NCBI RefSeq assembly: GCF_011683915.1
Contig: NZ_JAAQPH010000006.1
Location: forward strand, 62,001 to 126,000
DNA from: Pelagibius litoralis
Lineage (GTDB): Bacteria; Pseudomonadota; Alphaproteobacteria; Kiloniellales; Kiloniellaceae
Direction of reading: 5' to 3'
DNA length: 64,000 nucleotides
Under the pieces are notes generated by a model that worked only from the letters and a program-made list of their open reading frames with translations, did no database searches and was not told the DNA's origin. Of the stretch, positions 9,587 to 44,399 are shown in pieces. A program made the position numbers and the translations under genes. Each line of letters opens with the position of its first letter. The first letter of the stretch is position 1.

Positions 9587-9663
9587 GGCGGGGTAGCTCA
9601 GCTGGTTAGAGCAGCGGAATCATAATCCGCGTGTCGGGGGTTCAAGTCCCTCTCCCGCTACCA
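9587..9663 (+). tRNA. tRNA-Met (CAT), elongator type
   Basis: A 77-base cloverleaf with encoded CCA. The acceptor arms are GGCGGGG and TCCCGCT (G-U at both ends), with T8-A9 in place. The D-arm is GCTCAGCTGGTTAGAGC, the anticodon stem GCGGA/TCCGC closes a loop with CAT at 9621-9623, and the T-arm contains GGTTCAAGTCC. The sequence is the standard alphaproteobacterial elongator methionine tRNA rather than initiator, whose first pair is unmatched. The lysidine-modified isoleucine tRNA also reads CAT but has a different acceptor stem. Confidence 0.95.
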
Positions 9664-41336: not shown

Positions 41337-41471
41337 CTATTTTATCTTTTTACCGGCGATCGACAGCGGCTGCCTTGTGGCGTTGGAATCTGCGGTTGCA
41401 GAAACTTTCGGTTTGACCTGTTTGGGTTTCTTGGCCTCTTTGTTGCCGCGCTTGTTGTCGCCTTTAGACAT
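41337..41471 (-). CDS. Small basic protein of 44 residues
   Basis: A compact open frame preceded by GGAAGGAGAG, a near-perfect Shine-Dalgarno, 5-7 bases from the ATG. It begins MSKGDNKRGNKEAKKPK and ends LSIAGKKIK, with 14 Lys/Arg residues. The style (highly charged N-terminus, closing IAGKKIK) matches a conserved alphaproteobacterial short protein family that I know only by appearance. It is too short for most gene callers and its function is unknown. The neighbouring gaps (41141-41336 and 41472-41589) hold nothing else I can name. Confidence 0.75.
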   Translation of the reverse strand: MSKGDNKRGNKEAKKPKQVKPKVSATADSNATRQPLSIAGKKIK

Positions 41472-41589: not shown

Positions 41590-42411
41590 TTATATACGGC
41601 TGGCCCCCTGGGCCGAGGCGGCTGCGAGCTGGTGCCGATACCGCTGACCAAGCGCGTCGCGCGGAACGCTGAAAAGGCTGTTTGCCGTTGCGAAATCGTC
41701 GTGCGTGTCGATCTCGGTCCAGTTCAGATCCGTTATTTCGAGCGCGTGAAAGGCTGTACCCTGCGCCATCAGTCGCTCGTAAGCGGCCTCGTAGTAGTCC
41801 TGCTGATGCGCGTCATCTGCCATCATCAAGGTCAGTTCGGCAAACAGAAGCTTGGCGGTCTCGGCGCTGATCTTCTCGATCCCGATGGACTCTCCCAAGG
41901 CAGTTTTTGGATCAACTGTCTTGCTCGCCTGCAGAATACGCAGCTGATCGTCGATGATCACTTTCACCTCTTCGGCATCGAGCTGGATATCGCGATCGAT
42001 GCACAGGGCGTTCTGGAAATCACTATCGATCAGGCGACGCAGGATGCTCGGGTCGAAGACCACGTCGGCATCAAACTTGATAAAGTCGCTGCCGCCGATG
42101 GCGCGTTCGGTCAACATCAGGGAATAGCCGGTATTCGTCCTGGTGTATTTGTCATTGACGACAAATGTGATCTGCAGTTCCGGAAAGGTGTCGTCGACGA
42201 AGCGCCTGATCCGTTCCTCCAAATAGCCCAGAACCAGGACAAATTCGGAGATGCCGCAACTCTGGCAATTACGGATCATGCGTTCGAGGATTGGCGTGCC
42301 CGCGACCGAGAGCAGGCTTTTTGGGCAGTCGTCCGTCAGCGGCCGGATCCGGGACCCGACACCCGCCGCCAGAATGACAGCCTTGTGGGCTGGCTTGGGG
42401 GGAGATTTCAT
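41590..42411 (-). CDS. Nucleotidyltransferase, candidate CTP:phosphonate/choline type
   Basis: A 273-residue enzyme of the NTP-transferase family. The signature is AVILAAGVGSRIRPLTDDCPK (key Gly17, Arg21, Lys31), with a metal-binding Asp114 and Asp116 in KFDADVVFD. Its closest look is to phosphocholine cytidylyltransferase and PntC-type enzymes that activate 2-aminoethylphosphonate with CTP. It would make a CMP-activated head group for the CDP-alcohol phosphatidyltransferase encoded just upstream (36-base gap). Sugar nucleotidyltransferase is the alternative. GC is visibly lower than in flanking genes. Confidence 0.8.
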   Translation of the reverse strand: MKSPPKPAHKAVILAAGVGSRIRPLTDDCPKSLLSVAGTPILERMIRNCQSCGISEFVLVLGYLEERIRRFVDDTFPELQITFVVNDKYTRTNTGYSLMLTERAIGGSDFIKFDADVVFDPSILRRLIDSDFQNALCIDRDIQLDAEEVKVIIDDQLRILQASKTVDPKTALGESIGIEKISAETAKLLFAELTLMMADDAHQQDYYEAAYERLMAQGTAFHALEITDLNWTEIDTHDDFATANSLFSVPRDALGQRYRHQLAAASAQGASRI

Positions 42412-42447
42412 TTTGAACAGGCTTCCCTTCTGCTGCGCATCCGCGCG

Positions 42448-43215
42448 TTATTTGAGGATCGGAAGTTGGTGATTCTGCTGGATCTGTCGACCGTGTTGGA
42501 CGGCGCGATACAGGCCCCAGAAAAGCTGGCCGCCGGCGAAGATCCAAAGCATCGGCTCAAGCGCATCGAAAAGCAGCGCGGCCGACAGCATGAAGATGAA
42601 CACGCCTTCGTCGAAGTGGAAGATCTTGCGCTGCTCCCTTGCAAACCATGTCAGGTTCGCGCGCAGCCCAAAGCCCAGACCCGCGACCTTTTCAGGCTTC
42701 TTCCATTGGGACATCTTGGCGAGATAGCCTGGGTCACGCCCCGTTTCGATCTCAATGGCGATGTATTTTGTGTAGCCCCGCAGACCATACAACGCGATGC
42801 CGATGAGGGCTAAAACAACGGGTGTGACGCTGGACGACTGAAGATAAGCTGCATAACCTGCCGCGCCGAACCAGAGCGTGACCTGCACTTGGTCGGTCAG
42901 GCGGTCGTAATAGCTGCCGATGGGCGAGGACACCTGCCGGTAGCGCGCCATCTGCCCGTCCATGCAATCGAGCATATGGCTCAGATGGATCAGAACGGCT
43001 GCTGCGATGAAATTCGCGGACCCGCCAATGACAATGCACAGCGACGCCACCACAGCCACAAGGAACGACGCCCCTGTGATCCTGTTCGGGGTGATCCAAG
43101 GCGCTTCCACCGCGCCGTAATTCACAGCGATAGCCATGGGGGCAGTGACAAAGGATGACCACCACTCATCATCCACGGTCTTGGTGGCCCAAAGCCGTGC
43201 CAGCTTGCCGGTCAT
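42448..43215 (-). CDS. CDP-alcohol phosphatidyltransferase
   Basis: A 255-residue membrane enzyme carrying the complete motif D-x2-D-G-x2-A-R-x8-G-x3-D-x3-D, at Asp83, Asp86, Gly87, Ala90, Arg91, Gly100, Asp104 and Asp108. It has about six membrane segments. It joins a CMP-activated alcohol to a lipid or the reverse. Start is the ATG overlapping the aminotransferase stop (ATGA), which suits the operon; a longer frame extends nine codons upstream. With a head-group nucleotidyltransferase downstream and an AEP-type transaminase upstream, phosphonolipid synthesis is the best guess. Confidence 0.88.
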   Translation of the reverse strand: MTGKLARLWATKTVDDEWWSSFVTAPMAIAVNYGAVEAPWITPNRITGASFLVAVVASLCIVIGGSANFIAAAVLIHLSHMLDCMDGQMARYRQVSSPIGSYYDRLTDQVQVTLWFGAAGYAAYLQSSSVTPVVLALIGIALYGLRGYTKYIAIEIETGRDPGYLAKMSQWKKPEKVAGLGFGLRANLTWFAREQRKIFHFDEGVFIFMLSAALLFDALEPMLWIFAGGQLFWGLYRAVQHGRQIQQNHQLPILK

Positions 43216-44399
43216 GGAGCGGTTGACGCCAGGGCGCCGCACAGGGGAGTGATCAGCGCCGGGCTCGGCTCGGCTGGTCTGATCGGAACCACGAGATCAG
43301 CCGCCTCGGTTTGCAAGGTCACAAGAACTTCCCTGAGGGTCTGCAGGAAGAACTTGATGTCGAACTTGGACATCTCTCCGATATTGCCGACCTGGAAGAC
43401 CTTGCCCTGGAAACAACCTTTGCCCTCGTAGATGATGATGGATTTCTCGCGCAGACGATCTCGTAAATCACCGACCTTCACCGAAGGGGGTACGATGACC
43501 GTCGTGAGAACCGAGCACATGTCCTGCTCATCGATCAAGAATTCGAGATTCAGTTTCCGCATTCCCCATCGCAATTGTTCGGCGCGGGCGCGGATCGTAG
43601 CAAAGCGTTTCGACACGCCTTCGCGCAGGATGTTCGTCAAGGCCTGCTCCAGCGCAAAGAACAATGGCACTGCCGGGGTATTTGGCGTTTGTGAGCGCGC
43701 TTTGAGGAAGTCGTAGAATGTTGCGAGGTTCAGATAGGTTGTGTTCGCCTTATGGGCCTTCAGTTTCCTGAACTGTTTTTTGCGGCCGATCACGAAGGAT
43801 AGGCCGGGATAAGACCCGATCGCCTTGGAACTGGAACTGGAACAGAACGCGATATTGCAAGCCTCCAGGTCGACCATCTCGGCGCCCACGCTGCTGACAC
43901 CGTCCACGACAAAGATTGCCCCTTGCGCTTTCGCCATTGCGCCGACTTGCGCCAGTGGGTTCAACATGCCTGAGCAGGTCTCATGATGGACCATCGCCAC
44001 CACATCGATTTTGTGGCGCATCAGATAGGCCTCGACCTCAAGCAGATTGAAGGGCTCGCCCCACGGCACCTCAATAAGATGGGTCCGGTCGTTATGGATC
44101 AGAGAGGTCTTGTGCAGGCGCTCGCCAAACTCGCCGTTTGACAAGATCAGGATACGGCCTTTTCCTACAACGGAGGAGAGCATCGCTTCATTCGCTGCCG
44201 TGCCTGATCCGGTGATCACCACAGCGCGGTAGCGGCCGCGTCTCCTGATCTGAAAAAGCGAAAGAAGTTTCTGCTCGATACTGGCAAGCAGCGCATCAAA
44301 ATCGGCTTCTCTGTGGCAAATATCTTCTTTCGAGATCGCCACGCGCAGGTTCTCAGCCACGTTTACAGGGCCGGGGGTAAAGAGAAGATACTTGTCCAA
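43212..44399 (-). CDS. PhnW-like class V aminotransferase
   Basis: A 395-residue PLP enzyme. It opens with LLFTPGPVNV as in 2-aminoethylphosphonate:pyruvate transaminase and alanine-glyoxylate transaminase. Asp166 (FVVDGVSSVGAE) holds the ring nitrogen and Lys192 (SSSKAIGSYPGLSF) the Schiff base. The C-terminal 25 residues are an extra tail. The start is TTG with CAGGAG upstream. In the context of the two following genes it would form 2-aminoethylphosphonate from phosphonoacetaldehyde. No PEP mutase or phosphonopyruvate decarboxylase is in the window, so the precursor supply must be elsewhere or the assignment is wrong. Confidence 0.82.
   Translation of the reverse strand: MDKYLLFTPGPVNVAENLRVAISKEDICHREADFDALLASIEQKLLSLFQIRRRGRYRAVVITGSGTAANEAMLSSVVGKGRILILSNGEFGERLHKTSLIHNDRTHLIEVPWGEPFNLLEVEAYLMRHKIDVVAMVHHETCSGMLNPLAQVGAMAKAQGAIFVVDGVSSVGAEMVDLEACNIAFCSSSSSKAIGSYPGLSFVIGRKKQFRKLKAHKANTTYLNLATFYDFLKARSQTPNTPAVPLFFALEQALTNILREGVSKRFATIRARAEQLRWGMRKLNLEFLIDEQDMCSVLTTVIVPPSVKVGDLRDRLREKSIIIYEGKGCFQGKVFQVGNIGEMSKFDIKFFLQTLREVLVTLQTEAADLVVPIRPAEPSPALITPLCGALASTAP

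Follow-up and report, generated by a model that had tools for sequence, protein, structure and literature searches.

We describe a three-gene cassette on the minus strand of a 64,000-nucleotide stretch of Pelagibius litoralis DNA (contig NZ_JAAQPH010000006.1, positions 62,001 to 126,000; hereafter the window), which we read, with confidence and doubt about evenly balanced, as a mobile and self-contained lipid head-group pathway of the Kennedy/Pnt type that is uncoupled from PepM and uses a non-phosphonate amine. A sequence-only reading of the same DNA had proposed that the cassette makes 2-aminoethylphosphonate (AEP), activates it and transfers it to a lipid. The three packed genes, at 41590-44399, were indeed found where that reading had placed them, and Pfam agreed with it on all three enzyme classes, i.e.:

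43212..44399, minus strand: AT, a class-V (PhnW-sister) aminotransferase of 395 aa with a TTG start (Aminotran_5, 80.4 bits)
42448..43242, minus strand: CD, a CDP-alcohol phosphotransferase of 264 aa as called, with a GTG start (CDP-OH_P_transf, 51.6 bits)
41590..42411, minus strand: NT, a LicC/PntC-like nucleotidyltransferase of 273 aa with an ATG start (NTP_transf_3, 46.8 bits; NTP_transferase, 45.5 bits)

In the proposed pathway, AT would aminate a small aldehyde or ketone, NT would couple the phosphate ester of the amine with CTP to give a CMP conjugate (CDP-X), and CD would pass X-phosphate to a lipid hydroxyl with release of CMP. This logic of amine formation by transamination, CMP activation and phosphotransfer is well grounded in the enzyme families; we infer every substrate, the direction of the transamination and the lipid acceptor. 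The head group would likelier be a C-O-P amino alcohol, either ethanolamine-like or aminopropanediol-like, than AEP.

The catalytic state of CD and NT is consistent with such a role. The motif DxxDGxxAR(x8)GxxxDxxxD is complete in CD, as the sequence-only reading had stated, and over an alignment of 78 rows five of the eight motif positions are invariant, while D92 shows one gap and A99 and R100 one substitution each. The AF2 (AlphaFold2) model of CD has a mean confidence (pLDDT) of 87.6, and its top structural match is AF2299 (Z 21.5, 211 residues, rmsd 2.7), followed by the Archaeoglobus fulgidus IPCT-DIPPS (Z 18.5), PIP synthases (Z 16-17) and human CHPT1 (Z 12.3). Both motif and fold place CD in the CDP-alcohol phosphotransferase superfamily. 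NT shares with LicC and PntC the GxG(T/S)R...PK signature, here as GxGSR, and the substrate-contacting Lys, as far as these are described in the parts of PMC6697681 consulted; the Pro of the PK motif is variable, being present in 59 of 71 sequences. Its matches in the PDB are LicC (1jyk, 63 bits), Treponema denticola PntC (Tde-PntC; 6pd1, 62 bits) and IPCT (27 bits), which supports the proposed CMP activation followed by transfer. In an alignment read by eye, Arg21, Lys31 and Lys164 of NT align with Arg15, Lys25 and Lys153 of Tde-PntC, whose Ala mutants retain less than 10% activity according to the same parts of PMC6697681. Glu104 of Tde-PntC corresponds in that alignment to Asp114 of NT, like Asp105 of LicC, and Glu196 is aligned to Tyr207.

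The fold of CD also bears on a different explanation, in which NT and CD are a split IPCT-DIPPS that makes a soluble, osmolyte-like phosphodiester of an aminated compound and no lipid. The ranking of AF2299 and IPCT-DIPPS above the PIP synthases and CHPT1 points in this direction, as do the matches of the IPCT-DIPPS family NF041135 to NT (71.5 bits) and CD (38 bits), although both are far below its cut-off of 580. However, NT is nearer to LicC and PntC than to IPCT, a shared fold shows no function, and the inositol route is not known to include an aminotransferase. We therefore regard a soluble product as improbable.

AT scores under both curated cut-offs for PhnW/AEP transaminases (TIGR03301, 279.5 against 360.8 bits; TIGR02326, around 203.8 against 400.8 bits), and its best match in the PDB is the T. 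denticola PntC-AEPT (6pd1, 170 bits). Identity to PhnW proteins is 31-32%, and 31.7% to a separate PhnW of the window genome. In a tree of 36 sequences, in which the program flagged some long outgroup branches, 18 cassette ATs form one clade (100/99) that is sister to, and outside, the clade of ten AEP transaminases (100/97), of which two are solved proteins and the others are named from context or family score. The two clades are jointly split (100/99) from the serine/alanine-glyoxylate-like aminotransferases and from a planctomycete variant, AT'. AT thus stands nearest the AEP transaminases and not with the serine/alanine-glyoxylate enzymes, a grouping that would have spoken against a PhnW-like enzyme. 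The label PhnW-like holds as to closest relatives, but AT lies outside their clade, under their cut-offs and without their conserved Arg. In fact, AT shares the Lys that binds pyridoxal phosphate and the Asp of the AEP transaminases (1m32; 6pd1), with Lys192 and Asp166 kept in 78 of 79 cassette ATs and one gap, whereas Gln336 replaces Arg340 of PhnW. Gln stands there in every cassette AT having that position (78/79, the remaining one a gap), and Arg in all ten AEP transaminases of the tree. We take this residue to be number 340 and to bind the acid group of the substrate. Arg is also found at this position in all seven aminotransferases compared from PepM clusters, whose identity to the cassette AT is 27-31%. 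These come from a yardstick of 26 stretches around PepM matches, in six of which PepM and a neighbouring aminotransferase were called; the seventh is from a stretch where the gene caller missed PepM.

Further evidence comes from the genomes themselves. The window genome (6.03 Mb, 99.5% complete) was searched for pepM and for phosphonopyruvate decarboxylase (Ppd), as the sequence-only reading had advised, and neither was found above cut-off: the best PepM match reaches 124 bits on TIGR02320 (cut-off 319.6) and the best Ppd match 37.5 bits (cut-off 312.5). Three Pfam matches to PEP mutase in this genome are not PepM, judged by eye and by TIGR02320. Among the 82 loci that carry the cassette or parts of it, whose flanks extend up to 10-20 kb and are often much shorter, no open reading frame of at least 100 aa contains EDKX5(N/T)S. 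At the genome level, PepM exceeds the TIGR02320 cut-off in three of 78 cassette genomes (1/50 plus 2/28), i.e. in Candidatus Lucifugimonas marina, where it lies around 1.1 Mb from the cassette, and in the genomes of loci L086 and L098. These 78 include four variants (L086, L090, L091 and L099) and omit L052 and L092, which share metagenome-assembled genomes (MAGs) with L039 and L086. Relatives below the cut-off were a protein of 285 bits (G020/L024) and, where a contig ends, a fragment of 231 bits (L087). Rhizobiales bacterium IMCC20636 (L028) carries the cassette on a complete chromosome, which gave no PepM match at E 1e-40. Since PepM was seen above the cut-off in 43 of 385 genomes of an alphaproteobacterial sample, the search was able to detect it. 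There is no enrichment of PepM with the cassette (3/78 against 43/384; Fisher, p = 0.06, towards depletion; 4/79 and p = 0.15 when counting the L087 fragment and the window genome), in a comparison of a single-class sample with cassette genomes that come from several classes and are often MAGs.

The synthesis of AEP by the cassette, as first proposed, is therefore not upheld: the window genome lacks PepM and Ppd above cut-off, PepM fails in 75 of 78 cassette genomes, and AT is without the Arg. Of the combination on which the sequence-only reading was to be abandoned, i.e. a genome lacking pepM together with an NT grouping firmly with sugar or choline enzymes, the window genome shows one half: it has no pepM, but NT, whose affinity was judged from match scores, goes firmly with neither. 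All phosphonate biosynthesis requires PepM, according to the parts of PMC9381506 consulted.

Ppd and PhnW are scarce as well. Ppd exceeds its cut-off in one of 51 cassette genomes (Lucifugimonas), with partial or weak matches of 107-165 bits in 15 more, and a separate PhnW exceeds the TIGR02326 cut-off (400.8) in 11 of 51. In all 51 genomes TIGR02326 also matches a protein at 190-230 bits; its score and, in the cases compared, its location identify it as the cassette AT. The separate PhnW of the window genome (488.7 bits on TIGR02326) is located on another contig (contig 11; L184:3647-10783) beside genes which we named by eye as phnA-like, phnY-like, LysR and binding-protein genes, in what looks like an AEP-catabolic cluster.

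A PepM-like protein with the motif EDKSFPKVTS (285 bits) was seen beside an apparent class-I aminotransferase in genome G020 (L014:9416-12182). We rejected it as a PepM; it is probably a phosphonopyruvate hydrolase of phosphonoalanine degradation, the Thr in place of Asn being presumably the mark of that enzyme. A PalA/PalB route of this kind is described in the parts of PMC10574752 consulted.

A phosphonolipid cluster of Nostoc and Burkholderia has the same enzyme classes as the cassette, as described in the available part of PMC5987646. In Mycetohabitans (NZ_CP062180.1), a row of genes encodes CD, an oxygenase, an LPG-synthase-domain protein, NT, PepM, Ppd and AT, and Cupriavidus has relatives of CD, the oxygenase, NT, PepM, Ppd and AT. 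Such PepM clusters of the phosphonolipid type add pepM and ppd to the classes found in the cassette, and the Mycetohabitans one also a 2OG-Fe(II) oxygenase and the LPG-synthase-domain protein. Because they hold the same classes, the trio of the window mirrors the tailoring half of the known phosphonolipid cluster, minus the half that makes the C-P bond. The proteins are distant, with 31% identity for AT, 28% for NT and 41% over 46 aa for CD between the window and such clusters, and no relatives of Ppd or the oxygenase were detected among the called genes of the cassette loci (BLAST, 1e-4). The choline and ethanolamine phosphotransferases (CPT/EPT) of the eukaryotic Kennedy pathway follow the same logic of joining a CDP-amino alcohol to a lipid alcohol; CD resembles a cholinephosphotransferase weakly in sequence (27 bits) and human CHPT1 in fold (Z 12.3). 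In contrast to that pathway, the fold of CD is nearer to the archaeal AF2299 and DIPPS, and a transaminase replaces the usual choline or ethanolamine kinase.

Neighbouring genes offer some hints at the substrate. Two families of P-loop kinases adjoin CD in nine of the 82 loci. In six of these the kinase lies between CD and NT, being of type 1 in L060, L071 and L094 and uridine-kinase-like in L062, L079 and L081; in L077, at a contig end, and in the variants L092 and L099 it follows CD. The fold modelled for the type-1 kinase, at middling confidence (pLDDT 75.6), is shikimate/adenylate-kinase-like. Since a phosphomonoester route would need a kinase and AEP would not, these kinases support a C-O-P head group.

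Whether the cassette could nevertheless be a true AEP phosphonolipid cassette has to be weighed against this. In that case the phosphonate would be imported or come from a route other than PepM and would yield phosphonoacetaldehyde or AEP, AT would (re)aminate it, NT would make CMP-AEP and CD would transfer it to a lipid. AEP is kept alive as a head group because AT is sister to the sampled AEP transaminases, because NT is PntC-like, matching PntC as well as LicC, and because of the L098 locus. The latter (L098:294-2473) holds AT and CD without NT, in a genome which has a fusion of PepM with an NTP transferase, and Ppd, elsewhere. Moreover, the Mycetohabitans PepM cluster has the same CD, NT and AT classes, and the window genome, with a PhnW above cut-off among phnA-like, phnY-like and binding-protein genes, probably meets AEP. 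On the other hand, the AEP head group is weakened because PepM and Ppd are lacking, because of the Arg-to-Gln change and because PhnW is scarce: with PhnW above cut-off in only 11 of 51 genomes, using AEP through this enzyme is not a general trait (importers were not searched), and a scavenger of AEP would need no AT. We therefore consider this explanation unlikely.

Several observations nonetheless weigh against a non-phosphonate head group. The L098 arrangement looks as if CMP-AEP linked to PepM fed CD, and PepM clusters of the phosphonolipid type share with the cassette a CDP-alcohol phosphotransferase, an enzyme of the phosphocholine-cytidylyltransferase family or an NTP transferase, and an AEP aminotransferase. 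Given the sister relation of its clade to the AEP transaminases, AT may still act on phosphonoacetaldehyde or something closely similar, and since a carboxylate amino donor would also want the Arg, the change to Gln alone names no substrate. The Arg is retained in AT' of the variant loci. The type-1 kinase was rejected as an obligatory partner, with a strong match in only four of 51 genomes, three of them sources of the queries (a set with L094 in place of L100, which the PepM, Ppd and PhnW sets had), and the kinases might instead recycle CMP. Lastly, the lipid product is a prediction from gene content.

The spread of the cassette argues for its mobility. A single scan of contigs with CD gave 108 relatives, of which 80 were kept, and with L012 and L019 added this makes the 82 loci, in all of which CD is present by construction; many records are MAGs, taxa are those of the record titles, L012 and L024 belong to one genome, and L079 and L081 are apparently the same stretch. 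All three genes are found in 73 of the 82 loci, a cassette-type AT in 76 and a cassette-type NT in 74. Incomplete loci include L046, where the contig begins at CD, L067 and L077, which end before NT, and L098. Five planctomycete or verrucomicrobial variants (L086, L090, L091, L092 and L099) have the order AT'-NT'-CD, with AT' and NT' merely 22-28% identical to the cassette AT and NT; they look as if two of the three enzymes had been replaced around the same CD. The titles name Pseudomonadota, Bacteroidota, Chlamydiota, Chloroflexota, Actinomycetota, Nitrospinota and candidate phyla, i.e. seven to eight phylum-level groups. Carriers are mostly marine and of distant lineages, those named including Litoreibacter, Thalassovita, Roseovarius, Sulfitobacter and Shewanella benthica. 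At close range, CD occurs in two of 98 relatives, the window genome and one of another genus, and in none of seven others of the same genus; in the alphaproteobacterial sample it occurs in one of 385 genomes, the window genome itself. The same three genes lie on a plasmid of Sulfitobacter sp. SK012. None of 36 pattern matches on viral contigs was a CD relative, and the 11 phage records were all below 60% identity to AT, the eight listed being at 28-31%.

Composition agrees with this patchiness, and both support the lateral transfer that the sequence-only reading had suspected. The GC content of the cassette is 57.1%, as against 63.3% for the window, and its GC3 is 0.69-0.74, as against 0.79 (sd 0.04) in 13 neighbouring genes. 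The eight stretches of 2.8 kb with the lowest GC in the window all overlap either the cassette or the flank upstream of it. The flanking genes are of other families (SMP-30-like, amine-oxidase-like and hydroxyacid-dehydrogenase-like), and the sole tRNA of the window lies at 9587. Scans of the window for promoters and terminators gave counts close to those of shuffled sequence, and the repeats found were only short and imperfect. CD more likely starts at the ATG at 43215 (255 aa) than at the GTG at 43242, since both aligned homologues begin there and this ATG shares bases with the AT stop (ATGA).

The conservation of gene order bears on the explanation that the three genes are merely neighbours, with AT serving amine catabolism and the lipid steps being separate. 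The genome of L012 and L024 holds a solo cassette-type AT (76% identity) that adjoins a glutamine-synthetase-like gene (L203:7366-10041), the cassette of L073 is followed downstream by a gene of this kind, 63% identical to that copy, and near L012, L055 and L073, three alphaproteobacterial loci, there are betaine-monooxygenase-like, MttB-like and FAD-GcvT genes, all below curated cut-offs, which resemble those of methylated-amine breakdown. No such extra neighbour is general across the cassette loci. In 76 of the 82 loci, from phyla far apart, a cassette-type AT adjoins CD, with genes overlapping or tightly spaced, which makes separate roles very improbable.

One further gene follows NT in the window:

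41337..41471, minus strand: a small basic protein of 44 aa downstream of NT, which recurs in alphaproteobacterial cassettes

In a pattern search, the gene was found in 27 of 81 loci, in single copy each, on the same strand and 50-250 bp past NT. The protein has no Pfam match and possibly belongs to the cassette in Alphaproteobacteria. A search of plasmids for it returned no match, but the known Sulfitobacter copy was also missed, and the search is hence uninformative. Of other neighbours, a 2OG-Fe(II) oxygenase is present in four loci (by Pfam name in L075, by similarity in the others), with no detectable kinship to the one of Mycetohabitans, and HAD, GroEL and DMT genes were rejected as partners, as they look like roseobacter synteny. 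Two gammaproteobacterial MAGs have, next to the cassette, related-looking proteins of around 360 aa that are ATP-grasp-like by eye (L078:4002-5093 and L080:11707-12777); the one of L078 has no Pfam match.

In one open literature library, mostly judged by titles and the beginnings of abstracts, we found no paper describing AT, CD and NT as a cassette without pepM. It is possible, at somewhat less than even chances, that the cassette makes an undescribed class of phospholipid or phosphodiester, in which a new transaminase family that emerged next to the AEP transaminases and has lost their conserved Arg would aminate a non-phosphonate aldehyde, and a LicC-like NT and a dedicated CD would attach the product. 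The sequence-only reading and one public annotation call the parts phosphonate or phosphocholine enzymes, and if they are counted so, the potential for phosphonolipids would be overestimated. An intact three-gene unit that occurs over distant phyla, and in only one of 385 genomes sampled from its own class, is a portable trait for whose integrity there is strong reason.

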